DNA of 64,000 nucleotides from Beroe forskalii. Taxonomy: Eukaryota > Ctenophora > Nuda > Beroida > Beroidae. Where the stretch lies: contig WFMF01000003.1 in the NCBI GenBank assembly GCA_011033025.1, positions 1,271,483 to 1,335,482 on the forward strand, in the 5' to 3' direction. Positions 21,001-62,519 of the stretch are shown here, piece by piece (positions within the stretch are counted from its first letter, which is position 1; every line of letters starts with the position of its first letter). A program made the position numbers and the translations under genes. Below the pieces are notes generated by a model. It did no database searches, was not told the DNA's origin, and saw only the letters and a list, made by a program, of their open reading frames with translations.

Positions 21001-22854
21001 GCTAAAGTAAACAGTTGCCATGGTAGCGTCTGTCAACATATTTAACTCGAACACAAACATAAGATACCTAGTCCGTCAAATTAGTTTTAGAGTTTTGTGC
21101 CTGGTATCGCGTTGTTACTCCTGATTCTTTAGTAGTATGGAGGATGGCTCTAAAGGCCTCAATTGTATCTTCAGTAGTCCTTTACGCTTGGCTCTGAGGT
21201 TGAGACAAGTGCACAGGATCAAGGATGAATCAGCCCCCTGTTCTTGTGTTGCTCGAGTTGTTTCCCTTGCAGCCGTGTCCTAATCCCTTGCTTACCATGA
21301 CCCAATCCCTTCGTAACCATTTCCTAACCCCTAGTAACCGTGTCCCAACCCCTCTTATAATCTCAGGACTGGAGAGGAGTGGACCGCACCCTCGCCACTC
21401 AGTTCCTCCTCTCTTGTCAGTCCTACGAGGGAGGTTTTGGACAGAACACGGGACGGGAAGCACACGGGGGCTCCACTTTCTGTTCGGTAGCAGCGCTCAA
21501 ACTCATGGGAACATTCGATGAAGTGATGTGTGAGGAGAGGAGACAGAGGGTGTTGTCATGGTGCCTTAGGAGACAAGAGGTAGGTTATTTTAGGGTGCTG
21601 TCATGGTGTCTTAGGAGACAAGAGGTAGGTTATTATAGGGTGTTGTCATGGTGCCTTAGGAGACAAGAGGTAGGGTTGTCATGGTGTCGCCATAGCAAAT
21701 TAATAAGACAGTAATCAGCATAATGTGGACCGTTTTCAGTTTTATTTCTTTCTCAGTACTAAGAGTAATTTGGGTGAATTCCAAGAATTCCAAGATTCAA
21801 ATAGCAACCTTCAGACTGGGTTCAACGGTCGGCCCAACAAGCCCAAAGACACGTGTTATAGCTTCTGGGTTGGCTCCTGTCTCAAGCTTCTTGGTGGACA
21901 GGATTTCATAAACAAGGAGGGGAACTTCGCCTTTCTCATGACGACACAGGATCGTCATGTAGATCAAGTAATGATACTTCTACCAAGTTGAGAAAGGGTT
22001 AATTTGGACATGATTTTAGGCTTTTCGGAAGCATTTAATTGGAAGTTTCTTGTTATTTCTGAGGGAGGTTCCCCTAATTTCCCTTAATTATGACATCAAG
22101 GGCATCGTTGCTTTATTTTAAATTTTCAGAAGTCTAAATTAACCTAGACAAACTTATAATTTTCGTTAACGAGTAGACAGCAATTTGACATTTAAGACTA
22201 ATTAATTACGTTTACCAAATTTTACTATTTTCATGTTTACGAAATGACAAGTGTTTGCTGTTTATATATTTTGATGTTGATAAAGTGCTTCTACACTGTA
22301 GTCAGAAAGAAGCATACCAGCTCTTATCACTTCATTATCACGGACCTTTTTCCGCATTATTCCCGACAGTATAATGATTGTTCAGCACTGAACTGCACAA
22401 CACTTCAGCGTTTGTATGTTGTTTTTTAGTGCTCAGCGTTTAGACAGGAATCTGATCATGATCATGAGTATTGCTCACTTCCGTGAGTCAATTGCCTCTC
22501 TCGTTTCCACCCCACTCTCCTTACTCCCCATTTCCACTCCCATTAATATTCCCCCTCCCCACCCCCACTATTCCCTCTCCCCACCCCCACTATTACCCCA
22601 ACTCCCCTCTCCCACTTCCCCCCACCTACTCCCACTATTCCCCCTCCCTACTCCCTCTACTCCCTCAGGATCGTTACATGGGTGGGTTCAGTAAGTGGGA
22701 AGGCTACCTGCCCGACCCCCTTCACAGCTACTTCGGACTATCTGGACTTTATGTTGTATCCGGTGAAGTGGACATCCACCCTGCCCTGAATATTAGTATG
22801 AGAGCTTTCAGAGACTACCAAAGTAGATGTGATGTGCCCATTTCGTGGGATTAA
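18068..22854 (+). CDS. PGGT1B: Geranylgeranyltransferase type I, beta subunit
   Basis: This is the zinc-binding catalytic subunit of the cytosolic enzyme that attaches geranylgeranyl to CAAX proteins such as Rho-family GTPases. Seven exons: 18068-18260, 18493-18618, 18919-19030, 20346-20472, 21367-21579, 21764-21967, 22669-22854. All phases agree, giving 386 residues; the human protein has 377. Prenyltransferase alpha-alpha barrel motifs are clear: NYGHIAMTY, LILGDDLSGVD, YCASCISYML, YEGGFGQ, HGGSTFC, and GRPNKPKDTCYSFWVG. Predicted zinc ligands are Asp286 and Cys288 in DTC and His344 in PLHSYFGL. The exon 5 end is tandemly triplicated into the intron, exon 6 uses an AG after TACTA, and exon 7 follows a 170-nt pyrimidine tract. 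A few extra residues (HVDQ) sit at the exon 6/7 junction compared with the human protein. An AG lies six bases before the ATG. Confidence 0.97.
19031..20345 (+). other. PGGT1B intron, 1.3 kb
   Basis: This intron has no visible gene. It holds several CACGTGA motifs near 19780-19805. Its 3' end, from about 20237, is a run of CTTATTGCT units that forms the pyrimidine tract before exon 4. Confidence 0.5.
20485..20596. repeat. Hairpin repeat with CCAAT/ATTGG arms, copy 1
   Basis: The ends are inverted (CCCACAGG on the left, CCTGCGGG on the right). Inside, AATGACCAATGAG faces TGATTGGTCAAT around a short loop. A second well-matched copy is at 46765-46863 and weaker ones near 40868 and 61780. It is a small non-coding MITE-like family, here in a PGGT1B intron. 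Confidence 0.72.
21548..21674 (+). repeat. Three 45-bp tandem copies of an exon end and its 5' splice site
   Basis: Units run 21548-21592, 21593-21637 and 21638-21674, with a stub after. Each contains GTCATGGTG, CTTAGGAGACAAGAG and GTAGG, that is, the last codons of PGGT1B exon 5 and its donor. The frame stays open through all three, so use of donor 2 or 3 would add 15 or 30 residues (repeats of SWCLRRQEVG). Confidence 0.92.
22497..22668 (+). other. Long pyrimidine tract before PGGT1B exon 7
   Basis: About 170 nt are almost pure C/T, built from CCCACCCCCACTATT-like units and ending CTCCCTCAG at the acceptor. It is a far longer tract than splicing needs and arose by expansion of short C/T units. 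Confidence 0.85.
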
Positions 22855-23907
22855 ATTATGTAATAATATTTAATTAGATAATTGAATAATGAGGTTATTT
22901 AATGATGATTGGCGGTAATTCTTCGGTTGCCCAGATGTACTTCAGTAATTGTGCTTTGTTACGCGGTTAGGTTTTGTGATATATAAGGATTTCAACGAAT
23001 TTGGGACTGTTTTAACTTTTTAATAACGGGATACTTATACTCTTATAGTTATTAAATTGGTAATCGTTATTAAATGTACAGAATGTATGTCTGATTCATG
23101 GCGACCATATTTTCCCAGTTGCATAGACCACAAATTCAGAGGGGTTGTTTTGAAATTAAGACTTATGTACTATCCATACCCAATACTCCACCCAACACAA
23201 TGTTTTTGATGCAGTTATTGATAATATATTTATTAATTCGTATAAAACCGATTACTATGTATGGATGATTGCTTTGATGTGTATATACTTACGTTTACTG
23301 CTTCTAAATTTAGATTTTCGTCGTTTTATTCTTGACCAATGTTTAAAGTTAATTTGCGTAGTTCAAATGACGTTTATTTTGTTTAAAATCGCAAGTTCTA
23401 AGCACCTGTTCCAGACACAATCCTCTTTTATTGAAAAGTTATCTAATTTTGATAAAATAATAAACCCAAAAGTTCACACCTCTGCTATAAAGCTTTACAC
23501 TACAAGAGGCACCGATGAATGATGCTAATGTGCAATGTTTCCTTCATTTCTTTGTGTAATGTCTGCGGTGTTTCTTTTCATTTTTGTCAAATAACTTCGT
23601 TGAGTACTTGTACTATAAGCCTTCTGTTTTGTTTTGCTGGTTATTACGCTCCTTATTGTGGAATTCATAATAGCAAAGCAGCAAGGTATTATAAATTTTA
23701 CAAACGTACTTAAGTTTATTTGTAAAATATGATTAGGTACATTTTGATGCTTTTTATAATATCAGTTTCTTCTCGAAATGGGCTCAGTTATATGTTTGTG
23801 TAATTTCAGAACTTTGATTTACTATCCAATTGTTAATATTTACCTAACCTCTCTTTCTTTCCCTAGCTTTTCTATTGACCTAACCAGTAACCTCTTTCAT
23901 TCCATAG

Positions 23908-24445
23908 CTATAAGACGCCGTATGGGTTTTTACTTCCAGTATTTTCAACGAAGCCCGTGGATGGCCAATAGGAACAGTGTAAGTTTAAATGTATTTTTTA
24001 CTGAAACCAGATTGCTTGAAAAAGCTCGTAGAATTTGTCTTCGTGATTCATTGAAGGAATAATTGCTTAATTGGTCTGAACCGAATAGAATTTTGATTCT
24101 AAAACGTTAATTCTAAACTGATCACATACTCTTGAAAACTGTACAACTCTAAACATAGATTCCCTAAGTTATAAAACCATTTAAAATGGTTTGAAAGCTC
24201 TTGATTTTAAAAACTTCTCGTTTTCAAATTAACTTCCTAAGGTTTGAAATATATCTCATGTTTTATCCCAGGAGTTTTCTGTTGATGAGAGATTCGATAG
24301 CATCCGACCCCAACATGCGGTTATGAACCCCATTCCTCCTGAGCCCCCTCAAAGACGTATCTGTTCCATCAGTGACTCCTGCAGACTAAGTGTCAAGCGA
24401 GGTAGCGATGGAAACATATGGGAAATTACAGGAATTTTTAATTGA
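23908..24445 (+). CDS. Unrecognised two-exon small gene, 76 residues
   Basis: I do not recognise this protein. Exon 1 (23908-23978) follows TTCCATAG; its ATG is at 23922 and it ends at a perfect GTAAGT. Exon 2 (24272-24445) follows TTTATCCCAG and continues in frame to TGA. The product starts MGFYFQYFQRSPWMANRNS, then has an acidic part, a proline stretch (NPIPPEPPQ) and RRICSIS, a possible basophilic kinase site. The frame upstream of the ATG is also open back to the acceptor, so this could be the end of a larger gene. Confidence 0.42.
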
Positions 24446-24681
24446 TTTCTACAATATTTGATGTACCTATGATGTACCTATTATATTATTAAAAAGTTAG
24501 AAATTGTCATTATTATATCTCCGATTTTCATACCATAACTGCATTTTTAACCACTACATTTTGTCTATGTGCTATGAATCCATCAAATCATCACACGCTA
24601 TCGCATCAACTAAGAGTGAAGCAGTGTTTTTGCTAGAGTGAAACAGTGTCTACTCTGGCGTCATAACCCTTGTCATAGTGT

Positions 24682-24784
24682 GCTGGTGTCAAATTTAATA
24701 ATTGGTGTCAGAGTTGGTGTCAGAGTAAACTGGTGTCACAGTAAACTGGTGTCACAAACTGGTGTCACAGTAAACTGGTTTCAG
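24682..24784. repeat. AACTGGTGTCA minisatellite
   Basis: Six to seven imperfect copies of a 15-17 bp unit with the core ACTGGTGTCA. Related clusters occur in a GOLGA2 intron (about 3449-3547) and a TOPBP1 intron (55761-55905). Confidence 0.8.
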
Positions 24785-25796
24785 TCTTCAGAGCTGTGGA
24801 GTTCCAGAGAATACTGGTGAAGAGAAATTTTCTGACCAGTGCACATTGCGAATAGTAAAATGCCGAATAATTATTCGTGTATACGATATTATTTTTGATA
24901 ACGGGAGAGATATTTATACGTTTTATGTACGGCAGTTTTAGATATTCATCACTTTTTTAAAAATTAAAATTTTGCAGGAATAATCATTGAAATATGGACT
25001 TGTCAAATATTTAAGACGTGACATACACGCGTACGCCGAGTTCTACACGTATGTGTTATAGTCATAGTTTGATTTCTCAGAAATGGGCAATTTAAAGACG
25101 GCTCAACAGTCGTTACCCTACAGCAGGCGGCTTGCTTGCCGTCAAAGCGAGACTTTGAGCTGTTTCATTCTGTCGTATGATGGCCTTGTTCCACTTTACA
25201 ATATTATATATCTTGTTCGATATGTATGTAACGTGCGCCTTAAGGAGGCACTGGGTTCCGTGGTAAGACCGCTTACAGCACTGAGGGGTAACGACCACAT
25301 TTGGCGGAATATGTTGCGAAGCCAAGAGACTGTGCAGCAGAGGACAGATATCTTGTTCAATATATTACTATCCTGAATTCCTGAAACACAAGTCAAATTT
25401 TCAGAAGATATTTCGCAAATATTTACTGTGCTCTATTATGCATTTTGATTTACGAAATTATAACTTAAATTACGGACTGATTTAATACAAAATTCCTTCC
25501 TGGCTACTACTTCTTTCTGTTTTCCGAGATACAAAACAATAGAGGTAGATTGGAGAATGACTGAGTGCTCACTGTTCAGCTTTCTTCTTGACTTCTTGAT
25601 GTGCGTGGTCAGTTGTCAATGCTACTGAACAAACCCCTCATTAACAGCTCAGAAAGTCAGATTTCAGGGTTCGTCACCGAATTCCTCTCTCTAAACTCCT
25701 CAAGATTCTCCTTAGAGGTCGTCACGTACTTCCCTCTCTCTTAAGATTCTACCAGGGTCGCCAGTCACCGGACGCCAAATTAACGCTAACTCGGCA

Positions 25797-25900
25797 CTTC
25801 TGGGGGAGTGTTTGCTTGGCACTTCAGAGAAGCACTTCCAAGGAAACACTTCAGGAGAGCACTTCAGAAGTTGTGGAGAGCACTTCAGAGAGCACTTCTT
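25797..25900. repeat. GCACTTC-rich short repeat
   Basis: Seven or more copies of GCACTTCAGA-like units with variable spacing, for example GGAGAGCACTTCAGA. No coding role is visible. Confidence 0.7.
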
Positions 25901-27672
25901 ACAATTAGGATTTTCAACAGCCCCTGTTATCGTCACGTATACGCCAGGGTATCACTATTCTCTAGGTACAGTCAATAGCTTCACCTATTTTACAGCGCAC
26001 ATCACGCTACATGTCTGTACTTATCTATATATATGTATATAGTGCTGTTGGCCTCTTAATGTAGACAGTCGAGTCTCTTCAGTATAAAGACAGGGGAGCC
26101 CGGTCCGAGTCCAAGAGAAGGACCTTCAGTGTATGTAGACATAGAACTCAGTACTCTCTGTCTCTTGATTTAGTGTCTGTCTTGTAGACACCTGTGCAGT
26201 GTGCATGCTTTTGGCAGTTTGTGGTTTGCTGAATCGAATTCATGATAGAAGATGGTATTGGACTAGCACGAATCAGCCGTGCAAGGACTGTAACTTTTTC
26301 AAATAGTCAAATCATTGTGCTTGCATTCTTTCGAATGTTACATTTTGGTAAAACTGGTCTAATAAACGTGACCTGTCCTCGATTCTGAAAATTAATCAGT
26401 TGAATTTTTGACAGGTTGCACTTTACAGGCTGCAATGAGAGTCGTTTTAATTTTAATTCTAATCTTTAGAATGCTTCGCATACGTTCGTTTTTATAAATA
26501 TTTTTGTTGATGTATATTTTTACACTGCTTGATGTGATGAAAACTAAAATTTTAACAAAAACAACAGCGAATTGTGCCAATAATTTTCAGATTTTCTACC
26601 TTTGATGTTTTCTTAATTCATTATAATCATATGTTTTAAACCCTTAAAGAATTTAATAAATTTAAATTATTAAGTTTTATATGTTTGCAGTAAATATAGA
26701 AAAGAATTTCCACCTTGCCCTCTACACTTCCTCTATTGAACTGTGTACTCTGGATAGTCTAAATATACCAGACCTGCATGCCGTGCAAAAATGTGCCCTT
26801 ATTTGCTTCACAAGTCTAGAATTTATTATATTCTAGATGGAATCCTCGACTCTGTGATACTAATTTGGTAAATCTTCCCGTTGAAATTATATTTGCTTAA
26901 AATTTAAGATTTGTTTTTAACAAAACTTTCCTATCATTGATCTCTACTGCCCACATATATTCTTATGTTGCGTTTGGTTGTGAAAAATGGGCGTTTTAAC
27001 AGCCTCAACTCACCATTCAAACCTCTGATAATGACGTCACTCTTGATCCGCCCATTGCCTATTCTTCAGATCTTACTGAGTACGGCGGAAACTTTGTTTT
27101 CCCTCCCATGAGGTCCTTGTGATGTGTTTGAGAGTTGTGAAGGGGTGCCGCCAAAGATAACAAACTGGAAGTTGTGTTAAATTTGTTCCTTTCTTTTCTC
27201 CAATTCAAGATATAACACTGGAAGTTGTGTTCCTTTATTTACATGCTCAGTCGAACTCTCTTCATTTCCGTCTGAATAGTGAATATCATTGAACTTGGCA
27301 CCTGGCCATGATGGTTTTTACTTCTTTTTGTAAGATAACAGTGTCTACGCTCCGTTTAAGATCGCTGTTGGGGGTCAGATTAAACTCTCTTAAACACGAC
27401 ATGTGTTATTTTCCGAGCACTGAAATAAGACTAAAAAGGTGCCCAAGATGACCAATTCAATCTAGTACACACGCGCATAATGTTGTTAAGTTTTAAACTT
27501 ACTTGTTAACAACACTTCTGTAAATATTACAATAAAATTTGAGTGCCATGTAACAGACTAACAGAGCCGTTATTTGAAGGTAATGTTGCCATAGGTTGGC
27601 TAGCCCCTTCATATTATGGTGAATTGTGCGTTTTCTTGCTCCTAATATGCAGTGATTGGATCTCTCGAAGTA

Positions 27673-28357
27673 CCTTATTGTAGGAAATTAAGCACTCAGA
27701 AAATTAAGCACTAATGCCTCGAAAAGGGCTAAATTTCATGGTGCTTAGTGACATGTTGGCTTAATTTTTTATGCCTTTATTTTCAAATTATTTTAAGATT
27801 TTTCAACGTCGAAAAATGTTCGATATTTTGCTATACTATGTACAGTAGTAATTAATTTAGAACAATGGGTCAATGGAAGTTCAGAATCTAAATAATAATT
27901 TAATGATGAATTGAAAATAATGGAATAATCAAACATCCTTGTCGTAAGCCTCCTTCTCCACGTCTTCACCTTCCACAAATTTTTGGTTCTACATCCTTCA
28001 AGTCATCGTTATCAACTTGATTCCTGTCCACAGAATATCAAAAACTTAGCCTTTTCTTCAACTGATCGGTCAAGTTTGACCTGACTCTTGATCTACAGCC
28101 CTCTTTGTGTGATTGATTGGTGACCAGAACTGTTCTTCAGTCAGAACTTAAATCTGTTTTATGTAACAGATGCACATTAAAAATTGCGTATCATTCGAAA
28201 AATTTTGAAAAATTTGAACTAAGCCTACATGTAATTTGGCATACATGCAATCAAGCTTACATGCAATTAAGCACCAGATGTCTCAAAAGGGCTAATTTCA
28301 TGGTGCTTAATGACATGTAGGCTTAATTTTTTGAGTGCTTAATTTCCTACAATAAGG
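27673..28357. mobile_element. 685-bp mariner-like MITE with TA target site
   Basis: Both ends carry CCTTATTGTAGGAAATTAAG as inverted repeats, bordered by TA on each side, the target site of Tc1/mariner elements. A subterminal block (AAAAGGGCT, then TTTCATGGTGCTTA) also recurs at each end, so the repeats extend over about 100 bp. There is no transposase frame. A one-ended copy lies at 58927-59027. Confidence 0.82.
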
Positions 28358-29694: not shown

Positions 29695-30093
29695 CAATTC
29701 GTCACCTACAAGCTAAAAGGTCTTATGTGTATGTTTGTACTTTTGAGATATCGACTTTTGAACAAAAATCAGCAAAATGCCTTAAGTTAACTTAAGACCT
29801 TTATGCTTTTTATTGATGATTTCCGTACTCTATAACATGTTAACATATGACAAAAGGTCTTATGTTGATGTAAGTCCTTTCTGTTTTCGGAATAGGCCCA
29901 GTAAAATATCGCAAAAGGTTTTAAGCCAATTTAAGTCCTTTTAGATAAAAGTGAATAAATTGGAATTAAACGGTGATAGAAGTACAAAGATCGTTTGAGG
30001 AGGTCCGACTGAGCCCTCGGAAGGTACTCCTGCAGAGATCTAGAAAAGGTCTTAAGTGCACTTAAGACCTTCTAGCTTGTAGGTGACGAATTG
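29695..30093. mobile_element. 399-bp inverted-repeat element built from small palindromes
   Basis: The ends are inverted repeats of about 35 bp (CAATTCGTCACCTACAAGCT). Inside and at the ends are short palindromes with the arms AAAGGTCTTAAGT and ACTTAAGACCTT, at about 29717, 29785, 29853, 29911 and 30042. It has no coding capacity. Confidence 0.78.
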
Positions 30094-38795: not shown

Positions 38796-39114
38796 GATAA
38801 ATTTAGGAACAAAATATGAAATAAGATAAGTGTGTTCACTGTTCCGTGATCATCATCTGGCGAATGAGGACCGTAATATTAACTTATCTTTTGATCGAAC
38901 ATAGCTATAATTTGACGAATGCCAAATCACATATTATGAGATTATGACTCGAGTAATTATAATCACTTATCCATTACCCAACAAATATTATATCCATAAT
39001 CACCAGTGATTAGAACCCACCCAAAACACGAATATACTAAGCCACCTAATTCTAATACGAATGTACTGAGCCACTAATACTAATGCCCCACAAAAAAGGA
39101 GGGTGGTCGGAGTG

Positions 39115-39201
39115 ATGACTATGGAGGCATTACGATCCGGGTTCTTTGGGACTTCCACCACCTCCTACACTCAGCTCTACGACGGAGTCACTGCTGAGAA
39201 G
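39115..39201 (+). CDS. Candidate exon, 29 residues, with repeated donor site
   Basis: The frame MTMEALRSGFFGTSTTSY continues to TAEK and stops exactly at GTAATG. Codon content (Ser/Thr/Tyr/Gly) looks coding and GC is higher than the surroundings. No good acceptor is seen upstream, so it may be an alternative first exon. Three further donor-like copies follow in the intron. Confidence 0.4.
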
Positions 39202-39330
39202 GTAATGTAGAGAAGACTAGAAGAGTGTCACTACTGTGAAGGTAATGTAGAGAAGATTTTCGCTAGTAGAAAGGTAATGTACTGAATGTAGTCACTAGTA
39301 TCTAGTGAGAAGGTAAGGTGCAGAATGCTG
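39188..39330 (+). repeat. Four spaced copies of an exon end with GAAGGTAATG donor
   Basis: The motif around the exon end (GTCACTGCTGAGAAGGTAAT) recurs in degenerate form with donors at about 39201, 39241, 39272 and 39312. Confidence 0.7.
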
Positions 39331-42300
39331 TCGTGACTAGTCACAATTCTAGGGTAATTTGGGGTAATTAGGACCCCCTGAAAGGTGTCAAGGCGGGTCA
39401 AGTGACCAATGACCTTTCGCCTTACGATACAGGGTCTAACAATACTTCACTCTCCACATGGACCAAATTTGTTACAATAAAAAAGGACGCCCCTTTAAGG
39501 TGTCAAGGTGACCATTCGCCTAACAGTAAAGGGTCCAATGATCTAATTGGCTAAATTTATAGCCAGCTGAAGGAACAAGGGATCACTGATCAGAGGGTTA
39601 GGGGAGGGATTTTTCCCATGAATAATGCTATGATAATTTGGCAGCTACGAATTACTTGGTTGTCCGAATGTCAGAATCAGATTCCTAGTCGTGGATCCTG
39701 GGCGCGACCTTTAGCATATTAGCACAATACTTTGCTCTCCATCTCATTCGTATAAATTTCTTTCTTAGTCCTCACAAATTCTCACTTCTGCACGGAGAAT
39801 TGTAGTACATTAGCTGCTTCATGAGTTTGTTTCACGTTAAGAGCGTTGGAATACCAGGAATTACTTGGCTGTCAGATTCCTGATGCTGCTCTTAATGGTG
39901 TAAATTTGAAATGATAGACGAGCGACCAGCAGCATTCGCTCTGTATTTCATTTGTTAATTTCTCAGTTCTCTACGCTTTTGCAGTACATTTGCTGTTTCA
40001 GGAGTTTTAGTTTAAGGGCTGGAATTCCTGTTGCAGGTTCCATAACTAGAAAAGATCATCGCCTTAATAACTTTTAAGAATGGAGATGTCAACATTCTGG
40101 TAGATCCTTAAACTTACTAACATTTTAGCTCTTAATTTACTAACATTTTAGCTCTTTACTCAATGTCTAGGCCGTACAGCCCTAACACTTTACTAGCTTA
40201 ATACTCGTTAACGTAACAATGACGCATGGAGAAACAGCCTGCAATATACGAATCGATAGTAAGATAATGTCACTCTATTAGTTACAACAATTACTCTAAC
40301 AACCGAAATTCTGACTCATTTTAGGTATTTCAAAAACTATATATTGGCGCAAAGCCAAAAAGAGACCGGAAATACATATAATATTCCCGACTTTCGGTCG
40401 GCAAAATCAGAAGTTAACGATCATTTTGCTGATTGCGAGTATTTACAATTGCTGACACTTGACACGTCTATTCTCCCTTTACACACGCAGTGTTTACTGT
40501 TGTACTGCTAAATTACCTTGCAGTATGTCGAAGTGTTTCTTTGCAGACCTGTACTCCTGTGTATGTTGGTGAGTGGCTGCTGCTGGCTTGTCAGGAGCTT
40601 TGGTTGTTCACGTGTGTGTACGTTTCGTTGTACAATTGAGTTTTGTAATGATACAATAAAGTAATACAATCGTGTCGTATTAATCGTCTCGTAGCGCGAA
40701 GAAGACTCGATCATTCGAAGTTATTTCTTACGGCTTTTGTTTTGTATACGTACTGCAGCTCGTTTATGGGCGGTGGTTCTCTAGTTAACCCATAATGGAA
40801 TCCAGAAATCCTCTTGACATTGACCAAAGTCCAAACTATAGCATGCGGGTTTATTTTCAACTCACGGGCACTGATTGGTCACTGTCAAAGGGACCGATGG
40901 GCAATCTAAAGTGCCACCAGTAAATAGATCTGGTGACATTAAAGCTAACTGTCTCTACGCGATCGTCGGTTTAGTCCTAATATAAATTATGAAAGGTAAA
41001 TTACTACCTTGACCTTATGGCCTTATGGCTTGACGACTATTGACTCTGATAATCCCATTGTCTGCTGGGATGATGCAATACATTTGGTATACTTCCTGGA
41101 TTGATAGATTTAAGAATTGCACTCAAAAGCATGGATAAATTGAAACCACTGATAGCAAAAGTAATACCTTCTACTTCTGAAATTCTTGCGTAGTGAATCT
41201 ACGGATAGTGGGTTTTCTGTCTCACACTTCATTGTTATGTTACGTGTGACTTTGTGTGAATCTGTTGAGCTATTCTGTTCATAGAAAGTTATAGAATATC
41301 TTCGATGATAGTTCCATTTTAACTGCGTTAGTTGAAAAATTCTATAAGATAATTTTATTTTTCTGTTCGTTTTTCGCTGAAATGGCAAACACCAAAATTC
41401 CGTTGAACAAACCATTAAACAGTACCACGTACAATTTAACATCAGGCTTCCGCTTACGAAAAGTATTATGGGCGTTTCGAGGAAATTAAATTTTTCTTGC
41501 ACACATTTTACAACAACCGTCAGAGTTAGATGTGTTAAAAAGTCTGGAAGAAACCATGGTAAAAGAAGGAGGTAAAAAGAAGGAGAGGCCTACATTTCAC
41601 GAGTTTTTAATGTTCTGATGGTTTAAGTCATTGCCATGTATTTTAATGGTCAATGTATGAAAGAGAACCGTCAATTTTCCATGCAAGACTTTTAGTATGT
41701 GAAGGCAATAATAATATTACATGAACTGTTGACCTGTTAAAATGTGTTGTGTCGTAGTATGTTATGTGGAGTTGTGGATAGGAGTTTTTACCATGACATA
41801 GTTGAAAAGTTGGCAGACTTTATACAAGACAATATGGCTAACATTTCCTCCTCTTTTTTTCTATATAATATTCCATTAGAAAAACGTCTAGTTCTAGCTT
41901 TAAAGAACAGTAAAAGACAATTAGAATTTTCCATCTAGATAGGTGGGTATTGGGTGCTTGTTTATCAAGAAGTTAAAAAGGTTATCCCAACCTTTGCTTG
42001 CTTGACGCCTAAACAGTAAACCTCCATATGTCCATATATATTCTCGTTTTATATCGAACATATTTTGTCTGTGCGTTATATAATTTTCCACCTAGAAGAT
42101 AATTGGGTGCTTGTTTATCAGAAGCTAAAGATTATCAAACTTTATTATACGTTTAACGTCTTCAACTTGCCTACCAAAATTTAAAATCTCCTAACTTACC
42201 ATGTGGCTTGAACCTAATAATATTATGCACTCATATTAGAGTATTAGCTAGCCAATAATCACATGATTTATTAGAGTATTAGGCTAATATCTACCCCTCT

Positions 42301-48339: not shown

Positions 48340-49548
48340 CGCGGGTTCCTCCGAGTACTCGGACCAGTCGTACGACTACCAGATAGAGCCTAGTCCTGAC
48401 ACCTCCCCCATGAGAGAGACCTCCACCTCCAGTCCTCCTCCTCCTCACGAACTGCACAGGGACTGTCTGCCGCAACCCCAACCACTCTCCTACACCGAGC
48501 TAAACCGACTACCAGGTACGTTACACTGAGCTAAACCGACTACCAGGTGATATTTTAAATTGGGATATATACACCGGAACTAAACTGAGGTATGTTTTTT
48601 GTGCTAAACCGATAAGTGTTTTAAAACAATATGAGCATTTCGAAACAGGAGAAAATGTTAAGAACTAGGAGCAACAAAAATTTTCAAAATTAAATGCATC
48701 CCCCCACACATTTCATATTTTAGTTTACAGTCACTTTCTTGCAGTGGTCCAGTTAAAGGGACAAGATCTCAATGTGAAGTGTTGCTGTGATAAGCCCTGG
48801 GAAAAAGATGAGGAGGTTGGTCTTCTAAGAAAACTTGTTATCCAATGTTGTACAATGACTATTCATCTAACCAATCTATTGAAATTTTGACGCCTAAAAT
48901 TCTGTCGTATTGATGTCAAAAATAATCAGAATCACGGAACTTTTATTTAAAATATATTTAAAACAATTTCCAACTGTGTGGGTATTTTGTTCTTCATTAT
49001 TTCTATGTTCTGTAGCCTTCCGGTGCACGGTAAAAATAAAGGTACATACAGTTTGTTTATACTTTACACTTTTAAAATTATATTTACTTGTCATCACTTG
49101 AATTCTAAGATACCAGTAACTTTCTCCGGTTAATAAGAAGCATACGGTGCCGTTAATTACATGTAATTTGAGCGAAGTTTCTTAGAAACGTGTACTGGAC
49201 TTGTACTAAACAAGAAACTTCTTAAAAAATTCAAAATTTTAAAGCTGAAATACTCCGAAGTAGTCGACGGTTTTTCAATTTTAGGGCTTTTCACTCCCAC
49301 TTTTTCAGGCAACACCACCTCTCAGCACTACTTTTAATCTTTTATTAAAGCTTCACCTGACTTGAAAATTCTATGATTTTCACTCCCAACTTTTTCAGGC
49401 GACGCTACTCCTCTGCGGACACCACCTTCACTCGACCTGCGCCTGCAAGCTGATGGAAACGGGCGTTTGCCCGATCTGTAAATCGCCGGATGTCATCGAG
49501 GATAAACTCAGAGAGATACGAATAGACTTGACAGAGTTTAACTTTTGA
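48340..49548 (+). CDS. RING-H2 protein, three C-terminal exons
   Basis: Three exons join in phase: 48340-48515, 48745-48815 and 49399-49548 (stop TGA). The first encodes a disordered Ser/Pro/Tyr-rich stretch (EYSDQSYDYQIEPSPDTSP, then SSPPPP). The second and third form a C-terminal zinc domain: VKCCCDKPWEKDEE, then LCGHHLHSTCACKL and CPICK. The spacing C-x-H-x2-H-x2-C followed by C-x2-C is that of RING-H2 E3 ubiquitin ligases. The first ligand pair is odd: three adjacent cysteines instead of C-x2-C. The tail ends EIRIDLTEFNF. Function as an E3 ligase is inferred from the domain; the substrate and the 5' exons are unknown. It converges on TOPBP1. Confidence 0.77.
48491..48552 (+). repeat. 31-bp tandem copy of an exon end and its 5' splice site
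   Basis: Units 48491-48521 and 48522-48552 both read TACAC, GAGCTAAACCGACTACCAG, GT. The first is the coding exon end with donor GTACGT, the second an intronic copy with GTGATA. A third, weaker copy follows near 48570. Confidence 0.9.
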
Positions 49549-51030: not shown

Positions 51031-54000
51031 CTACGTTTTATGCCGTTTCGAAGGAGTAGAAGTAAGCGACGTATCGGGGACTGATCGCTTGGTATTATTA
51101 AGCGAAGTCACGTGACTTCTCTTTGCCATGATATCTCGTGCTACAGGCAAGATCTGATCGTCTCTGACAGAGGGACTGTCACCGTGGATTAGGTATTCGG
51201 GAACGTACTCCAGTTTTAGGCAGTGTACGCCGGCTTCAATGAGAGCACCCAGGGGCACATCTGAGGGGTTATTGGTACGATATTTATACTTGTTCTAGAC
51301 AGGGGCTCCAAGGAGCAATTGCTCGAACGATAGCTCGGGTAGGCGTTTTAGAAAAGATGACCCTCTACGCTTGGTGCATGCATGAGCTGGTGTAAACAGG
51401 GGCGGATCTGCAAGAGATTCAGACAGACACCCCGGCGCAGGATCTCCCGCTTCAGGTGTTCCCAACCGCCAGGGCTACATAGGTAAAGTATTACGATTTG
51501 TAAGATATAAACGATTTTCACTCATCAGGTTTGGGGGTCATGGTGGTTTCCACCAAAGCATGAGTGAGTCCAGTGAGGACCTTGTAGGGAGGAGTATCCT
51601 GAGATACCTTACCACCACCACACTCAATAACTCCTGGGGTGGAAGGCGGGGTGAGTTCAGGTGGAAAAAGGGCTGACAACGATAATCACAAGATATTCTG
51701 ATTACAAAAGCTTCTGATTACAACTCTCGTATCTCTTGAGGCGAAATTATCGGAGAACTTGGGGAAAGGGGTCAAAGGGAAGGGAAGAATTCTGGAATGA
51801 AGATTTAAAGAGAGCAATACATAATATGTTCAATACCTTTGATGCCTTTTGTTTTGTGGCTGGTGATACACAACATCACATTCCACCCAGTGAAGGCTTT
51901 CTGACCGAACCACCTACACGAAGCAGAGGCTAGACTATGGCTGATTCCTGAGAATGAAAACATTATAGTTTGAAAAACTTCAGAACAGTGTTTCTAACAT
52001 CAGATCAACAAAAATCTCAATGAACTACTCCTCTTTTAAAACAACTGTGAAAGTTCCACTCAACCCACCCTTGAGGTTTGCAGTGAAGTGGTTCCAGGTG
52101 AACTGCCCCTCCTCGACCCAGTCTCCCCGCTGTCTGCAGGCAGTAAGGAATGTGGGGTGGAGTACCCACTTACCAGACCCCACTGCAGAGATGTACTTCT
52201 CATTCCGGTTAGGCTTAGTTGCCTGCGGGGGAATAGGTTAGGGTTGCTGGTAGAGGAAATGAGTAAGGAATGCTGGTGGAATAAGTAAGTTTTGTTTGGC
52301 CAGGAAATAAGTTTGGTTGGTCACTTTTTAACTCACCACGAGATGGGTACATCTGGTATCAAAACTGGCTGAAGAGAGAACAGTTCCGCCGAGAGATGAG
52401 ACTACCCCTCCAAACTCCTTCTTCTCAGCTTCGTTCATTCCTGAGCAAAGTTTTACTTACATTCGGCTATGATCTTTGTCGTAAGGAATTTAAGTAAACA
52501 CAAGTCTATGACTGTGAAACAATCGGCGATCATAAACTATATTTCAGTCTATTATAGATTTAAATTTGATTTAAAATTTCAGATCAAATCAAACTAATAC
52601 CACTATATTCGTACCCGTGAATAAGAAGAATCGCGGGGGTGGCGGGGGAGCTGGTTGCTCCTCGGCCTGCTCAATGTCCCCGTCTGATATGTCAATGTCG
52701 AGGGGATCAATGTCCTTCACAAGATCCTTTACTTCTGACTCAGAGAGCTTGTGTACCTCCTGATGAAGGTTTTTTAGTCAGAATAATCATGGAAAAAGAA
52801 GATTGAATTTTGATGAAAAAGGAATTCCGACCGGTAACCATAAACTGGTAAAGTAGGACTAAACATGAAATTTAACCTTTTTCACAGATTCCGTGTTTGG
52901 AGTAGAAGCTGATGCTGGAGCAAGTGAAGGATTGGGAATATTCGAATTATTGAGGGTGTCATCGGGAACACCATGTCTGTTGTCAACCGGCTTAGCTTTG
53001 GTGTCACTCTTGTTTTCAAGGGATCCTCTGGAGTCTAGAGGAGCTTTTGACAACCCTGCTGTACTAGGACCTTCCTCTCCAGCTAGAATAGCCTCCCTCT
53101 TCTCATCACCGTCCTCATAAGCAATGGTGGGATGGGGTTGTGTCATGAGATCCTCAACCGGGTAATCCATCCGCTCGATCTTACGGAATGTGGTGCGTTT
53201 AGCTTTACTCCGTGGAGTCCCTGGAGCTACAAATCCTGAAGATGTTTCATCTGACGAACTTATCCTTTCCAACATCTTTATTTCTTTTTGAAGATTAGCG
53301 TCTAGAGAGTGAGCGTTGTCAGCATCCACTGGAGGAGGTTGAGCAGGGAGGGGTTGAGTGTTGTCTATATCAACTGCAGGTACTTCCACATCTTCACTAA
53401 CTAGGGAGTGGAGGAGGGGATTAGTTGTTACGAGAAGGTTAAAAAGGGGATAGTCGTTAGATATAGAAGAGGATAAGAGTGCAATAAATAACAAACTGAA
53501 TGGGTAGAAAAGAAGTATCAAGAACACCGGATTAACTTAGGTGGATTCTAATAAGGAGAGGAAGCGAAGAAAAGAGGAATATAGAAATGGTGAAACACTG
53601 GATAACTGAAGAGCTTACATCCCCTTTCCTTCTACCTGATATGTTGAGGGAGCGCTTTGGATCGAACCCTGGTGGGAAATCTGACTCCGGCAGTCTCTCC
53701 TTCGCCTCGTCACACGCCCGCACCCAGAAACAGGAAACTGTCTTAACCCCTCGCTTCACAGCTTCCTCAATGTTAGGTTCCCGAACTTCTTTCAAACCTG
53801 AAAAGGAGTCAACTGTCAACTTATCAAGGTTGAAGTTCAAACGATTTAACTGATACGAGAGTGTCATCATCAAAAGCTTTCGAAAATCATGCAATTATCG
53901 TCGTCAAGATACCATTTCTGAAACGTTAAATTTTCCCACAATATTTCTCCAATACCATCTTTGTCGCTACTCACAGCAGATGACGTGTGTGCAGGCCCTG

Positions 54001-57000
54001 TCAATGCAGGTTCGCACGGCAGCCCCGTTTCTCCGGGCCGTGGCTTTGATTTCAGCCACCGGAATCTCAAGGTTCTTGTTCTGCTTCACTACCAGCGTCA
54101 CCTGTGGAGAGAAGCGGTGGGTTTTAAGTGATCATGAGGGTATATTAAGTGGGTGATTTTATTGGTCGGAGGAAATATTGCACGCAATTCGCAGGAAAAC
54201 TCGTGTAAAAGAACAGGGTAAGGATTGGAATCATTGATTAATACCGATCGAAAAAGCCAAGGAATTGTGTCATACAAGGAAAACATACCCCACTGAGTGT
54301 TCTTGAAGTCGGAGCAGCCTTCTTCAGCGCAGCTGTGATGTTCCTCTTGTAGATAGTCTCTAGACTGCTCACTGTGGTGTCAAGAGAGGGGGCAGGGGAC
54401 TCAAGAGCCGCCAAAACACCATCGACCTGGGGGAAACGACACATTTTGATGTTCTATTTTAATCTTTGAAACAGAAAAATACATTAATCTTAAATTTTTT
54501 AATTAGGAAAAAGTTTCGATAGTTGCTTCAATCAATTTAAGATGCTTCCAACTCCTAATATGGTTTTATTGGATCACCACGATATCACAAATCACTAAAC
54601 CCTCCAGATCCCACCTTGATCGCACTCTTTGGTTTAATCTTCATGGGTGTCACGAATCCCTCCTCATCATGTTTCAGAACAGACCCAGACCGGGTGATGG
54701 TTACAGCTGGGGTCTCCTCAGGAATCTGTTCAACTACTTTACTAACAGCTCCACTCAGCTTCTCTGATGCTCGGTCTTCTAACTGAGCTATATCACGCTT
54801 TCCTGAACGGAGGTTGATTGGGAGGCGGCAGGGGGTAATATTCAAGGCGGGAGTACTCGATCTTCATTTCATGTAAAGAAGATGTCATTATTTCCACCGA
54901 AATAAAACGCATTGATATAAGATTCTAAAATTGAGGACTCAATCATTTCTAAGATAAATACATTATCTTGTATTAAATAATGAGATTCGTGAATAGTGAG
55001 ATTCTTATTTCTACAAACCTGGCGTCTCCTATCGTAGAGGAAGGGCGTGGTGTCTGCCAAGTTCAGTGTTTCCAGACACTTATACAGCCAGGACACGTGC
55101 ACACAGGGTAGCTTCCACTTGAAGGCAGCCAGCACCTTCTTAGAGTCAGCTTCATACCGCTAAGAGGAAACAATCGGTTAACCAAACCGATATCAACCGG
55201 ATAACCAAACTGTCAATAACAACCGGTTAACCAAACCGTTATAGAAATACCGGCTAACCGGTAGTATTTACCCGACCGAAACCGGAATGTAAACCAACCG
55301 TTAACAAGTTAACCGAACATAAAAAAGACTGCGTTTCAACGGTTAAAATGTATTTACCTGGTATAGTAGATGAGTGCAGGGCCGACATTCAGGCATGTTT
55401 TTGCTGGTCGCACTGCTGCCTCTGATAGCCTTGTTTGTGAAGGTTCCTTGGTAGACCCCACCCAGGGTCTCCACCACTTTACAGATGTGAGCCAGCTCAA
55501 ACCCTGAGAACTGGGAAAGAGTTGAGTTTAATGATGGGAATGAAATTGGTTAAAATTACAAATAAGTTAGATGTCAAGACATCAGTTTCCAAACACAATT
55601 CAAAGATAGAAGGAATTCATTGCATTTGACATCCCTCACCTGAGTGTAGCAGATAACGCAGCCCTGCAGCACATTACACGATGGGGGTACCTCTCGGGAA
55701 GTGAAGAGGATGTTGTCTCCCACAGAGAGGATCTTTCCTCCCTGGATACACCTGATAACAGTCAAACTGGTGTCAAAGTTAACTGGTGTCAAAGTAAACT
55801 GCTGTCAAGTGAACTGGTGTCAAGTGAACTGGTGTCACGCGAACTAGTGTCAAGTGAACTAGAGTCAAGTTAACTGGTGTCAAGTGAACTGGTGTCAAGT
55901 CAAGGAGATCTCACCTCTGTAACCACATGTAGGTAACATGGGTAGTGTTAGAATGCTGGGTCTCTTCCTCTTTGAAGGGATCTCCCACCACAAAGTGAGC
56001 GTTATCAGCCCTGCAATTAGTGAATTGAGATGAAATTCCTGGTTTTAAACCAAATAAAATCAATGAACGAGTTGAATATTGGCAAAAGAAGCTGATCGAC
56101 AATTAATTTGCAAAATAAATCATAATCTTCCGAATCAATCTGAATTATTTTTCATACCTTAGGCATCCCCCATGAGCTATTATTTGTTGTTGAACATTTC
56201 TTGCCGTTTTGGTTGGAATCTTTGACGAGAGGAGAAAAGAAAATCCTTTGAACAGATCTGATTTTTGTAGCATCTGAAAGGAATATTGAAGGGAATGAAA
56301 ATTGGCATACCTGAGGTACATTGAGGAACTTAAGAAAGTTTAAATGATGTACCCTCACACACCAACAAATAAGATAAAATGTAATCATGATATAACGTAC
56401 CGTAGAATCGTGGGATTTAGTGCTGTTAACGACAGTAGTTGTTTCGGAGCTTATTGTTCTGGAAGTTGAAGGCTGACCACCACGCCCCGGGGTTGCTATA
56501 GTTGTATCATTGGTTGCCGTGGTGTTACCACCCGTTGCTATGGTAACATCATTCGTCACCGTGGTAAGGTCGTTGCTACAGGTGGTGTTGGTAAGCGTGG
56601 TATCTCCGGCTGTGGTGGTGTTGCTGCTGGTACTGATCCAGAATCGCATGGGATTTCTCCTGGGACTGAAATGGGGATTAGAAACACTCGGCTGCTGATG
56701 AGAAGATCCTCATTGGGGAAAATGGAACATCAGAATTATTATATCAGAATTATTATATTGTGTAGTTAAAGTTCAGAAGGAACGAAAACAGCGCAAAATG
56801 TCCTGCACTTTGACCACCCCCACCTGTTTTTCCGTTTTGACAGGTCTGAAGTTTGGTAGAGGATTGTTCTCCTGCGCCATTGCTTGGTGCCCGGAAGGCA
56901 TCAGACTGTAGGAGTCCTCTGACTGCTGAACTCCCCTCCTGCATCGACTTCACCAACCAGTCTACTGATACCACTGCCGCTTCAGGCTGCATCGCGTTCA

Positions 57001-57352
57001 GCATCTCAACCTGAGATGAGCTTGAATTTTCCACACTTTTAAGAAGGATAAAGCGGAATTGAGGCATGAAAAATCGATAAATCTGTGTCTATTTTTATTT
57101 CCACACAATTATAACCACAGACTCACATTATATCATTATTCATTTTGATCAACTATTTCAAACTTTTTGTGAATTTTCCCCGACTTTTCACTAAACCTCT
57201 TTGTAGGTTTTCGTCTTAGAAACGATGTGAGTAACTCTCTCGGACAGCACATCCAGCCGCATAGCTCCTCCCTGGTTGATTATCTTCTTTATCTTATCTA
57301 TTTCAGAGCTGGAGAAGCCAGAGAGGAAGATCCTGCACCCTTCCAAGTATCC
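51031..57352 (-). CDS. TOPBP1: TOPBP1, BRCT3 to C-terminus (5' exons absent)
   Basis: TOPBP1 is a BRCT scaffold of replication initiation and the ATR checkpoint. Exons in coding order: 57197-57352, 56824-57010, 56401-56659, 56158-56273, 55915-56010, 55640-55751, 55358-55510, 55019-55159, 54615-54855, 54289-54426, 53975-54101, 53636-53797, 52877-53400, 52615-52759, 52337-52440, 52069-52222, 51837-51947, 51522-51633, 51031-51260, about 1,090 residues. Order follows the human protein: BRCT3 (SSSEIDKIKKIINQGG), BRCT4-5, a linker with ALESPAPS, BRCT6 (NLEIPVAEIKATARRNG, then LPESDFPP), an acidic linker with APGTPRSKAKRTT, BRCT7-8 (RNEKYISAVGSGKWVL; HCLKLEYVPEYLIHG) and a basic tail TPSKRHKT. The expected N-terminal 350 residues (BRCT0-2) are not in the window. 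No Trp lies in the linker where the ATR-activating motif sits in vertebrates. Phases clash by one base at three junctions (56824/56659, 55019/54855, 51522/51260). Confidence 0.95.
51295..51473 (-). other. Possible alternative last exon in the final TOPBP1 intron
   Basis: An acceptor-like TTACCTATGTAG is followed by an open 59-codon frame with protein-like content (PEAGDPAP, FTPAHACTKRRGSSFLKRL) ending LLLGAPV and TAG. In the phase left by the preceding TOPBP1 exon a different frame is used, which stops at 51348. It is GC-richer than ordinary introns here. It is either an alternative terminus or chance. Confidence 0.25.
55165..55325. repeat. AACCGGTTAACC repeats in a TOPBP1 intron
   Basis: Several copies of ACCGGTTAACCAAACCG-like sequence with degenerate spacing. 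The core AACCGGTT is self-complementary. Similar ACCGGTTAA motifs occur near 63683-63715. Confidence 0.7.
55761..55905. repeat. AACTGGTGTCAAGTG minisatellite in a TOPBP1 intron
   Basis: About nine copies of a 15-16 bp unit AACTGGTGTCAAGTG with single-base variants. Same family as 24682-24784. Confidence 0.87.
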
Positions 57353-57394
57353 CTGACGAGACACGCGAGGTCACTCAGTGACCTCTGAGAGGTC

Positions 57395-58605
57395 CCTATC
57401 ACTAACAGGGGACCCTATCAAGTTAACATAGGACCCTATCACTAACAGGGGACCCTATCAAGTTAACAGAGGTCCCTATCACTAACAGGGGACCCTATCA
57501 AGTAAACAGAGGTCCCTATCACTAACAGGGGACCCTATCAAGTTAACAGAGGTCCCTATCACTAACAGGGGACCCTATCAAGTTAACAGAGGTCCCTATC
57601 ACTGACAGGGGACCCTATCAAGTTAACAGAGGTCCCTATCACTGACAGGGGACCCTATCAAGTTAACATAGGACCCTATCAAGTTAACATAGGACCCTAT
57701 CACTAACAGGGGACCCTATCAAATTAACAGAGGTCCCTATCACTAACAGGGGACCCTATCAAGTTAACAGAGGTCCCTATCACTAACAGGGGACCCTATC
57801 AAGTAAACAGAGGTCCCAATCACTAACAGGGGACCCTATCAAGTTAACAGAGGTCCCTATCACTAACAGGGGACCCTATCAAGTTAACAGAGGTCCCTAT
57901 CACTAAAAGGGGACCCTATCAAGTTAACAGAGGTCCCTATCACTAACAGGGGACCCTATCAAGTTAACAGAGGTCCCTATCACTAACAGGGGACCCTATC
58001 AAGTTAACATAGGACCCTATCACTAACAGGGGACCCTATCAAGTTAACAGAGGTCCCTATCACTAACAGGGGACCCTATCAAGTTAACAGAGGTCCCTAT
58101 CACTAACAGGGGACCCTATCAAGTTAACAGAGGTCCCTATCACTGACAGGGGACCCTATCAAGTTAACAGAGGTCCCTATCACTAACAGGGGACCCTATC
58201 AAGTTAAACAGAGGTCCCAATACTAACAGGGGAATTAACAGGGTCCCTATCAAGGGACCCTATCAAAGAGGTCCCTATCACTAACAGGGGACCCTATCAA
58301 GTTAAACAGAGGTCCCTATCACTAACAGGGGACCCTATCAAGTTAACAGAGGTCCCTATCACTAACAGGGGACCCTATCAAGTTAACAGAGGTCCCTATC
58401 ACTAACAGGGGACCCTATCAAGTTAAACAGAGGTCCCTATCACTAACAGGGGACCCTATCAAGTTAACAGAGGTCCCTATCACTAACAGGGGACCCTATC
58501 AAGTTAACAGAGGTCCCTATCACTAACAGGGGACCCTATCAAATTAACATAGGACCCTATTACTAACAGGGGACCCTATCAAGTTAACAGAGGTCCCTAT
58601 CACTA
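57395..58605. repeat. 40-bp minisatellite, about 30 copies
   Basis: The unit is AGGTCCCTATCACTAACAGG plus GGACCCTATCAAGTTAACAG. Most copies are near identical, with a few partial units and an irregular patch near 58207-58270. The half-units AGGTCCCTATC and GGACCCTATC show that it grew from an older 20-bp repeat. It directly abuts the first TOPBP1 exon seen. Confidence 0.97.
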
Positions 58606-59224
58606 AATAGGCTACAGTAAGATACCATAGCTATAGTCATATATGATACTGACACTCATTAGAGGGAGGGTTGATTGTATATTTAACTATGGTATTATAA
58701 TTGATGAACTCATCCAAAGCTATACAGCCTAAAAGTTGGAAGCAAAAATTATTTTGTCCAATTTTGTCCAAAGTTAACTTCATTTTTGAGAATTGACAAA
58801 AACCATTGGACAAATTGGACATAATTGGACAAAATTGGACTTGGCCCTGCCTCAAAATGTAGAAAAAATGTGTAATTTGAATACATTATATGAAAACATT
58901 GAATGAAACAGTTTCCAATTAATTAACATGTAATTAAGCACCAGACCTCTCAAAAGGGCCTAATTTCATGGTGCTTAATGACGTGTAGGCTTAATTTTTT
59001 GAGTGCTTAATTTCCTACAATAAGGTAGATGCGTCCCTTTTTTCTGGTGTCAAACCTTAGCTGAATCCTGAATTTGAACTTAATATTTTTCACTCATCAA
59101 TTCATATTTAGGTATGTGATAATATATTTTCTCTAAAATTGATAGTTAAGATTATCACTCGTCAATTTGAAATCAGGTATGTATGTCAGGCATTGGAAGT
59201 TAACCCGCTTTTAAATACTTTCAG
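58606..59224. other. Spacer between minisatellite and vasculin exons
   Basis: AT-rich, with several AATTGGACA units near 58755-58840 and the one-ended mariner-like copy. I find neither the missing TOPBP1 5' exons nor the missing vasculin 5' exons here. Confidence 0.5.
58927..59027. mobile_element. One-ended copy of the mariner-like MITE
   Basis: About 100 bp match the right end of the element at 27673-28357, including CTTAATTTCCTACAATAAGG followed by TA. The left end is missing. Confidence 0.82.
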
Positions 59225-61054
59225 CCGTCGCTGCAATCCACCAAACCCAGAAAATCAGTGGCAGTTAACAGCGGAGCGTGGTCCTCTGCCCCCTCACGCA
59301 GCAAGGGAAAGCTCTACAACAGCTCCAACAAGGCTGGTAAAGTCCAATCTGCCCCGGGAGGGCCCAGACAGCGATCCAACACTCAGGGAGACGGAGATAA
59401 ACCCAGCCCAACCAAACCCAAGGGAGCTAAGAGTAGTGAGACCACGGGCAGCAAGTTCGATTTCTTTAACTCTCTACGATTGGACGAAGGCCTAGTTAAC
59501 AATGAGCTAGAGAACAATTCTTTTGAGAAAGGTGGGTGGGAATTTTGTTTTAAATCATCTCTCTTTTAATTATGCTCAATTACTTGCAATTTCTAAAACA
59601 CGATCTGGGCCGATTCTGATGCTATTCTTATAATGAATTTGATAATTTTTCAAGAATGAGTAAATTTTTCCCGGAAATCAGACAAACGATGATACTCCCT
59701 CGATTTACTTGATATGAGGAAATGATGATTTGTAATGACCCACTTCATCATCTCAGAGTGTGACGGTTTGAACGGTGTAGAATCTCAGAACTCCACCCCT
59801 CTTTCTTCCAGTGTGGAGACTGAACACAGGTAACATTTGGGATGTTTTGTCGATTCGTGATGGATTGGTTGGGATTGAATTTAGGAGTGATTAGTATCGT
59901 CACGATAGTCATGTTTGCATCATATTGACTATCTATGTACGCGTTATTTTCTACTTCAGAGATATTGAAAAACTTCTCGTTATGTTAGAGTGTCAAGCAT
60001 CATTGCTGTGCAATGACGACATTTCCTTGCATGGAAAGTTGTCTTGCTCACGAACAGTCAATCTGCTAACATGACATCATCAAACAATCGTCGCGAGTTA
60101 TTCTGGCCATTTTGTTTCCCTGCGTCTTCATACATATCTGATAAGTATGGGCTTATGATTATGTAAAATGGCATCATTACACAGGCTGCTGAAGGTGATG
60201 GGATGGTCTGAGGAGCAAGAACCACCACTGACCGAAGAAGAGGTGCTCTCTGCTCGCCGTGAGATGGAGAACCACCGCAAGCCTGACACTCACTCTCCAA
60301 CCACCCTCTCTCCTTTTCCTTGGGTACGTGCCAATTACATTCATTCTGTGGCAGAACACTAAAACTCGTTATAATTAATTCCCCTCCCAATCGCTGAATC
60401 TCCTTTTTGTCTTACAAGAGGCGATTTGCCTTGGGTACGTGCCAAGTCAAAAAGGCTAGATAATGCTGTACATAGTTTTGTGTTGGTACACCAAAACTCG
60501 TATTAATGAATGTTTCTTGCTATCAGTTTGGCAGGCTTCTATTATTTGACAGGCTTCGGAGTGAGCTGAGCCAGCGGGGGTGGAGAATGGAGTTCATAAT
60601 AATAATAATAATAATAATAATGTTTTGGCAGCTTAGCCAACTCAATTCTTACATAAAAAACTCTAAATCTACCCCAATTCCAAATCATACTGTAGATTGT
60701 TATTCAGTTTTGTGATTAACAAACAAATCAGTGGACCTCTCATACTTCTATTCAGAGTCTGAGTTCGAACTGACTAATGTCATATCATTTAAAATTTTTC
60801 AGGATGCGAAAGAAACGAATTTATTCATTCACATTATATTTTAATTCAATATTTATCTATTGCCGCCATCCTCCTCTCCCCCCCCCTTAGTCAGACGTTG
60901 TCTGGCCGACTCTGCGCGCGAAGGGGATCTGACACCCCAAAAATAAAACACTTTACCTGAATTTTCATGATTTGAACGTTTTTCACAGGCTCCTAAATTC
61001 TATCTGCCAAGCGAGGACGAGGATCTATCTTCGGATAGCGAGGATGAAACTTAG
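59225..61054 (+). CDS. GPBP1: Vasculin (GPBP1/GPBP1L1 family), C-terminal exons
   Basis: Vasculin is a nuclear GC-rich promoter-binding factor. Four exons join in phase: 59225-59531, 59757-59829, 60185-60323 and 60989-61054 (TAG), 195 codons. The first encodes a Ser/Lys-rich basic region followed by GSKFDFFNSLRLDEG. The second ends SSSVETEHR and joins LLKVMGWSEEQ in the third, matching the family's hallmark EHRLLKEMGW; PLTEEEV follows, as in the human protein. The end is acidic (LPSEDEDLSSDSEDET). The N-terminal half of the protein should lie upstream, between the minisatellite and 59225, but is not there. The third exon's donor region is duplicated about 110 bp downstream. Confidence 0.9.
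60312..60512 (+). repeat. Duplicated exon end and 5' splice site in vasculin
   Basis: CCTTGGGTACGTGCCAA, which spans the exon 3 donor at 60323, recurs around 60430, and the following AAAACTCGT landmark recurs at about 60362 and 60493. The second copy lies wholly in the intron. Confidence 0.8.
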
Positions 61055-62515: not shown

Positions 62516-62519
62516 GCGC

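Follow-up and report, generated by a model that had tools for sequence, protein, structure and literature searches.

In a 64,000-nucleotide stretch of the genome of the ctenophore Beroe forskalii (hereafter the window; positions 1271483-1335482 of contig C358, WFMF01000003.1, in a 216-Mb assembly of 1134 contigs) the 5' splice site, or donor, of four exons is copied a short distance into the intron that follows it. The exons concerned belong to PGGT1B, the predicted gene for GGTase-I beta, to a vasculin-like gene and to two further gene models with exons ending at 39201 and 48515. Such copies probably reflect ordinary short tandem duplication that is tolerated because the upstream donor stays intact. 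Many short head-to-tail duplications appear to be present in this genome, and some of them would cover the 3' end of an exon and its donor by chance. With the duplicate added downstream, the original donor and the preceding exon would be left untouched, splicing could go on at the first donor, and the added copies would leave with the intron, the sole cost being competition from the later donors. Duplications at donors should fare about as well as intronic ones, because the first donor and the exon stay intact, and they could sometimes grow into longer arrays; drift together with selection against exon changes may be all that is needed.

PGGT1B is the only case in which the probable use of a particular donor is supported by homology. 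Its identity can be assigned firmly from the predicted protein, which matches Pfam Prenyltrans (E 1.2e-58) as well as the GGTase-I beta chains 8rdx_B (E 3.4e-36) and 1n4p_B (E 3.9e-36). A preliminary description of this DNA had claimed a 45-bp repeat at the end of the exon, and Tandem Repeats Finder (TRF) indeed reports it, each unit carrying a donor (GT at 21580, 21625 and 21670, with position weight matrix (PWM) scores of 6.9, 6.9 and 6.6). When 21579 is joined to 21815, 118 residues align gaplessly to GGTase-I beta; the acceptor AG of this next exon is at 21813-21814, the gene finder having put the exon start at 21757. The first donor is the copy that fits the conserved protein and is presumably the one used in the RNA. 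Because the conserved protein requires 21579 to be joined to 21815, a homology-supported acceptor outside the repeat, no new intron that starts at one copy's donor and ends at the AG of the following copy is found in PGGT1B. The second or third donor would insert 15 or 30 residues, and both copies are open in frame, just as had been proposed. The insertion would directly precede the conserved NGRPNKPxDTCYSFW stretch, which we take to hold zinc and diphosphate ligands. Copies 1 and 2 show two differences in their coding part, both synonymous as read from the sequence.

The exon ending at 48515 is followed by the two 31-bp units described earlier, positions 48491-48517 and 48522-48548 forming a 27-base match with one mismatch, and its donors lie at 48516 (GT, PWM 6.7) and 48547 (GT, PWM 5.5). 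The label of a RING-H2 exon did not survive, as the exon has no Pfam match of its own and zf-RING_5 reaches 19.8 bits, under the cut-off of 27.9, across the last two exons of the gene model. All four donor-like sites claimed for the exon ending at 39201 are present in the sequence (GT at 39202, 39242, 39274 and 39313); the first two alone make up the repeat detected by self comparison, and the sites at 39274 and 39313 are AAG/GTAA sites (the slash marks the junction) read directly from the sequence. There is no Pfam match in the part of the predicted protein that holds this candidate exon. Searches of the assembly with the PGGT1B unit, 48340-48600 and 39090-39350 returned only the place that each came from, and for this reason there is no un-duplicated second copy for comparison.

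For the vasculin-like exon the assignment is moderately supported (Pfam Vasculin, 30.3 bits against a cut-off of 27, mainly across this exon). The proposed donor copy near 60430 is there, positions 60314-60334 recurring at 60425-60445 with one mismatch; the proposed tandem unit is not, since the copy sits 111 bp away and is dispersed rather than tandem. Head-to-tail copies of a short unit are thus found at PGGT1B, 48515 and 39201 and not in the vasculin pair, and AG/GT lies inside the duplicated segment in three of the four window cases (GAG/GT, AAG/GT and CAG/GT), the vasculin junction being TGG/GT. A paralogous copy of the vasculin exons occupies -3906 to -980 (loci in the flanks are cited in window coordinates, negative values lying before the first letter of the window) and is 77-91% identical to 59218-62519; a genome search with 60185-60530 found a single other place, at 79% identity. 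The paralogue's donor has a weaker corresponding pair downstream (score 11, spacing 117). By hand count, donor and copy agree at 12/13 positions inside each paralogue, and at 11/13 and 10/13 between paralogues. Within each paralogue the two members of the pair seem to evolve in step, which could reflect conversion or, with numbers this small, chance. The vasculin exons at C358:1268454-1268794 and within window 59218-62519 are duplicated about 63 kb apart; by eye, the exons are nearly identical and the introns more diverged.

Features of the four duplicated exon ends, in window coordinates
Feature	Position	Strand	Evidence
PGGT1B exon with tandemly repeated end	21367..21579	+	Prenyltrans match, gapless GGTase-I beta alignment
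PGGT1B repeat, 45-bp unit, 2.8 copies, 93% matches	21547..21674	+	TRF
Next PGGT1B exon	21815..21967	+	start by homology, end from gene finder
Candidate coding exon	39099..39201	+	gene-finder coding score alone
40-bp repeat across donor	39187..39256	+	self comparison (score 24) and sequence
Predicted exon upstream of RING-like gene end	48340..48515	+	gene-finder coding score alone
31-bp repeat, two copies, across donor	48491..48548	+	self comparison and sequence
Vasculin-like exon	60185..60323	+	Pfam Vasculin
Dispersed 21-base copy of vasculin donor region (GT at 60435)	60425..60445	+	self comparison

The frequency of such copies was assessed in 344 kb, the window being joined with 280 kb of flanking sequence added as 28 tiles of 10 kb. 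Exons were modelled with our own self-training exon-chain gene finder, which took general splice consensus tables as its starting point; donor scores are PWM scores. A junction was counted as duplicated when an ungapped copy covered it with an exact four-base core, scored at least 16 (match +1, mismatch -1.5) and was displaced by 12-300 bp. The filtered exon set omits exons that score below 7 for coding or have at least 40% of their sequence within arrays. An unfiltered set of predictions (donors 15/156, acceptors 7/160 at a score of at least 18), which contained exons inside minisatellites, was replaced. Three first-order Markov versions of the region gave a rate of copies scoring at least 16 that was printed as 0.0, and TRF returned 299 array rows across the 344 kb. 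The copies across donors are real duplications and not chance similarity, because the Markov versions yield none at the printed precision, but the region is full of short duplications.

Donors do not stand out from the intron next to them. Duplicated junctions were found at 7/166 donors and 2/172 acceptors, and duplicated positions amount to 5.7% of near-junction intron, 9.2% of all intron and 2.6% of exon interiors. When position is matched, 7 hits fall on the 159 donors for which the model has an exon next to them, and the adjoining 120 bp of those introns predict 8.8; the preferential origin at donors that had been suggested is not established by these figures. Other position-matched counts gave 7 against 8.8-9.0 for 154 donors and, in an earlier 314-kb run, 4 against 6.5-7.4 for 153 donors. 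At fixed offsets in the filtered set, with a score of at least 16, 6/157 donors were duplicated, with 6-12 hits at +10 to +150 and 1-5 at -50 to -10. In the repeat profile, values of 1-2% far inside exons give way to roughly 5% at the donor, and the intron shows 4-8%. After removal of mini-exons the position test gave 7/153 donors (flank hits at -41274, 80224 and 85390) and 2/157 acceptors, near-junction intron positions reaching 4.9%. The best copy lies downstream in the intron for six of the seven hits among the 166 donors, the exception being -115466, with its best copy 45 bp upstream; together with the gapless upstream donor of PGGT1B this fits the earlier suggestion that duplications are retained because they leave splicing undisrupted. 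A depletion at acceptors appeared by position (2/161 against 7.0 expected, P 0.003, with P up to 0.125 under stricter exons) and was dropped, the locus count being 4 against 4.48 for 157 acceptors and Fisher tests of donors against acceptors giving P values no lower than 0.10 under each of 16 settings.

Several results pull the other way and suit the alternative that duplications arise or persist about twice as often at donors, for example through transcription or the AG/GT motif. The rate inside the same exons predicts 3.2 hits for the 159 donors, and because 7 hits compare with 3.2 expected from exons and 8.8 from introns, the donor rate lies between the two. The profile has a modest hump in the intron at +20 to +50, up to 8.3%, followed by 4.2-4.7% at most offsets from +60 to +100. 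In a locus test, each repeat locus was placed at random in introns plus 30 bp of exon, with mini-exons removed; all data together, the discovery window included, give 9 loci at 154 donors against 4.6 expected (P 0.047), a count that includes one donor added by hand (in a PDE-like gene), acceptors having received no such correction. The comparison of donors with acceptors and introns that the preliminary description had proposed thus yields, over the 344 kb, no donor excess by position and about twice the expected number by locus. The window itself has 4 loci against 0.9 expected (P 0.011) or, by position, 4 hits against 1.22 (P 0.0086) or 1.59 (P 0.044), with 43-48 donors; pooled window intron rates of 4.6-8.0% would raise the expectation for 48 donors to 2.2-3.8. 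Among 107 intronic arrays, sense donor-like sites occur in 22, 10 and 6 at scores of 3.7, 4.7 and 5.7, compared with 14, 4 and 1 for antisense sites and 13.5, 4.8 and 1.7 for random segments, two of the six top-scoring sense rows being one array. An excess of up to about twofold is also possible because the gene finder under-calls duplicated donors: in the PDE-like gene it missed the likely exon end, mini-exon removal did not mend this, and the donor was taken as -100190. The flanks are the fairer test, because the window itself suggested the idea, and there the excess was not replicated (5 loci at 111 donors against 3.35, P 0.25, one of the five being the hand-added PDE-like locus and two, -16296 and 110577, straddling modelled donors that fail the position test in exon models not inspected). 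The claim that four hits exceed expectation therefore stands nominally in the window (P 0.009-0.044) and falls in the flanks. Position and locus tests bracket a donor excess between none and about twofold; a general donor excess, which we considered, is unsupported after matched controls and unreplicated in the flanks.

The alternative also draws on motif pairs, counted genome-wide on both strands at distances of 15-45 bp with the same motif reversed as control. Pairs of CAGGTAAGT number 243 against 19 for the reversal (36 against 9 at gaps of 15-28), and those of AAGGTAAGT 109 against 17; both donor motifs exceed their reversals, which favours some preference. Loci of pairs, counted by hand as clusters more than 5 kb apart, number at least 19 for CAGGTAAGT (from 100 of the 243 pairs plus all 36 at gaps of 15-28), 7 for its reversal and 10 for the one-base-changed CAGCTAAGT; they number at least 29 for AAGGTAAGT (100 of 109 pairs) and at least 13 for the one-base-changed AAGTTAAGT (100 of 330 pairs). 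The changed motifs go both ways, CAGCTAAGT forming 29 pairs (10 reversed) against 243 for the donor motif CAGGTAAGT, and AAGTTAAGT 330 (405 reversed) against 109 for AAGGTAAGT. Single CAGGTAAGT sites number 1734 against 1365 reversed, and only this motif was normalised by singles; among the pairs listed long arrays dominate, and pairs were counted without a tie to exons. As breaking the donor motif goes with fewer pairs in one comparison and with more in the other, the motif counts do not settle preference. Taking these counts together with the window, the locus test over all data and the strong sense sites in intronic arrays on one side, and the flanks and position-matched introns on the other, we regard a preference for donors as unlikely.

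That the copies serve as functional alternative donors which lengthen the protein is very improbable. PGGT1B would be the case for it, its units being open in frame, its three donors scoring almost alike and the coding differences between copies 1 and 2 being synonymous, but the additional 15 or 30 residues would fall where the GGTase-I beta alignment is gapless. The extension thus holds as an open frame in PGGT1B and fails in the other three window cases, the exons ending at 39201, 48515 and 60323, where the model's reading frame hits a stop if the downstream copy tested is used. Assemblies often go wrong at tandem repeats, and the copies might have been created there. Their substitutions (93% matches in PGGT1B), the weaker counterpart of the vasculin pair at the same place in a diverged paralogue, and the single matches of the PGGT1B unit, 48340-48600 and 39090-39350, which give no indication of collapsed or duplicated haplotypes, all speak against this, and we consider assembly artefacts the least credible account of all.

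Ordinary duplication followed by tolerance would also cover more extended cases in the flanks. In a CAP-Gly gene at +85390, identified by three stretches of Pfam CAP_GLY, a 41-bp unit starts in the exon end (+85368) and is repeated as far as about 86370; the array has 24 donors, with scores of 5.4-6.5. GTAAG is intact in all 24; the GGTAAG block has no mismatch in the 24 copies, the lowest of 36 six-column blocks, and the GTAAGT block is second with 2 mismatches. Array homogenisation could be the source of this conservation. The PDE-like gene, on the minus strand at about -100449 to -100156, has 8 GTAAG donors spaced 37-47 bp apart and scoring 6.2-7.0, whose conservation is by construction, as they were located by searching for GTAAG; the copy 81 bp beyond its donor is open in frame and would add 27 residues. 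The gene name and the conserved reading SEG/D at the donor are presumed from a resemblance to PDE proteins. A 45-bp pair is also present at a further exon, whose end is placed at 80224 by one model and at 80231 by another. Among six cases inspected, use of the nearest copy donor ends in a stop for 39201, 48515, 60323, 80231 and 85390, and the frame stays open for PGGT1B. It seems improbable, though slightly less so than functional alternative donors, that donor amplification is a recurrent tolerated state of its own, seen in the arrays of 24 (CAP-Gly) and 8 (PDE-like) donors with the CAP-Gly core kept while the unit drifts. If selection keeps these donors, the arrays could bind U1 redundantly and in this way secure recognition of the exon or prevent premature 3' end formation within the intron.

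Other arrays and duplications were noticed in passing. At C122:285946-287442 and 313152-313497 an array with a unit of about 43 bp has printed units GTAAGT...CACTAAAC...TTGCTCAG, each with a donor, a branch-point-like and an acceptor-like motif, and resembles a satellite of minimal introns. Window 57388-58606 is a 40-bp array of about 30 copies with related arrays at -56010 to -55306 and, inverted, near +151852 to +154411, and window 61882-62519 holds a 28-bp array of 22 copies with a nearly palindromic core (TTTCCTAAGGAAA) between CG-rich flanks. The opposite gene models of +126831 to +146985 and +147151 to +168207 share nearly identical predicted protein stretches, which suggests an inverted duplication.

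The duplicated donors resemble several systems in the literature, as far as the available excerpts of the reports cited here describe them. In the Rogers model introns are gained by tandem duplication of a segment containing AGGT (PMC4974935, PMC2891723), and PMC4974935 cites genes of fission yeast in which a 24-bp exonic AGGT segment is present several times in tandem. The cases described here share with it the short tandem duplication with AG/GT, so that each pair of copies holds a potential GT...AG unit. In contrast to that model, the duplication carries a pre-existing donor into the intron that it borders, and no unit-length new intron is indicated in PGGT1B. As with the tandem alternative donors of the GYNGYN type (PMC1779574, PMC2423196, PMC2279118), two or more donors stand close together at one exon end, but the spacing here is 31-111 bp and results from copying of whole segments, whereas the shifts in PMC2279118 are 3, 6 or 9 nucleotides. 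The dual-specific splice-site array of human UBC (PMC10809524), the closest published splice-site array that a limited literature search brought up, is likewise tandem with a potential splice site per unit; each of its sites can act as 5' or 3' site and its units are coding, whereas the extra units here are intronic. Intronic variable number tandem repeats near splice sites, such as that of ABCA7 (PMC5954066), share the position of a tandem repeat within an intron, but the repeat described here takes in the exon end and the donor itself. Long intronic arrays grown from donors did not come up in the same limited search.

At present the duplicated donors of B. forskalii, with near-identical copies 31-45 bp apart and as many as 24 within a single intron, serve as useful natural experiments more than as evidence of a special mechanism. 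If donors were preferentially duplicated or retained, the genome would offer a natural test of which of several identical 5' splice sites the spliceosome selects, and of the origin of alternative donors and new introns.

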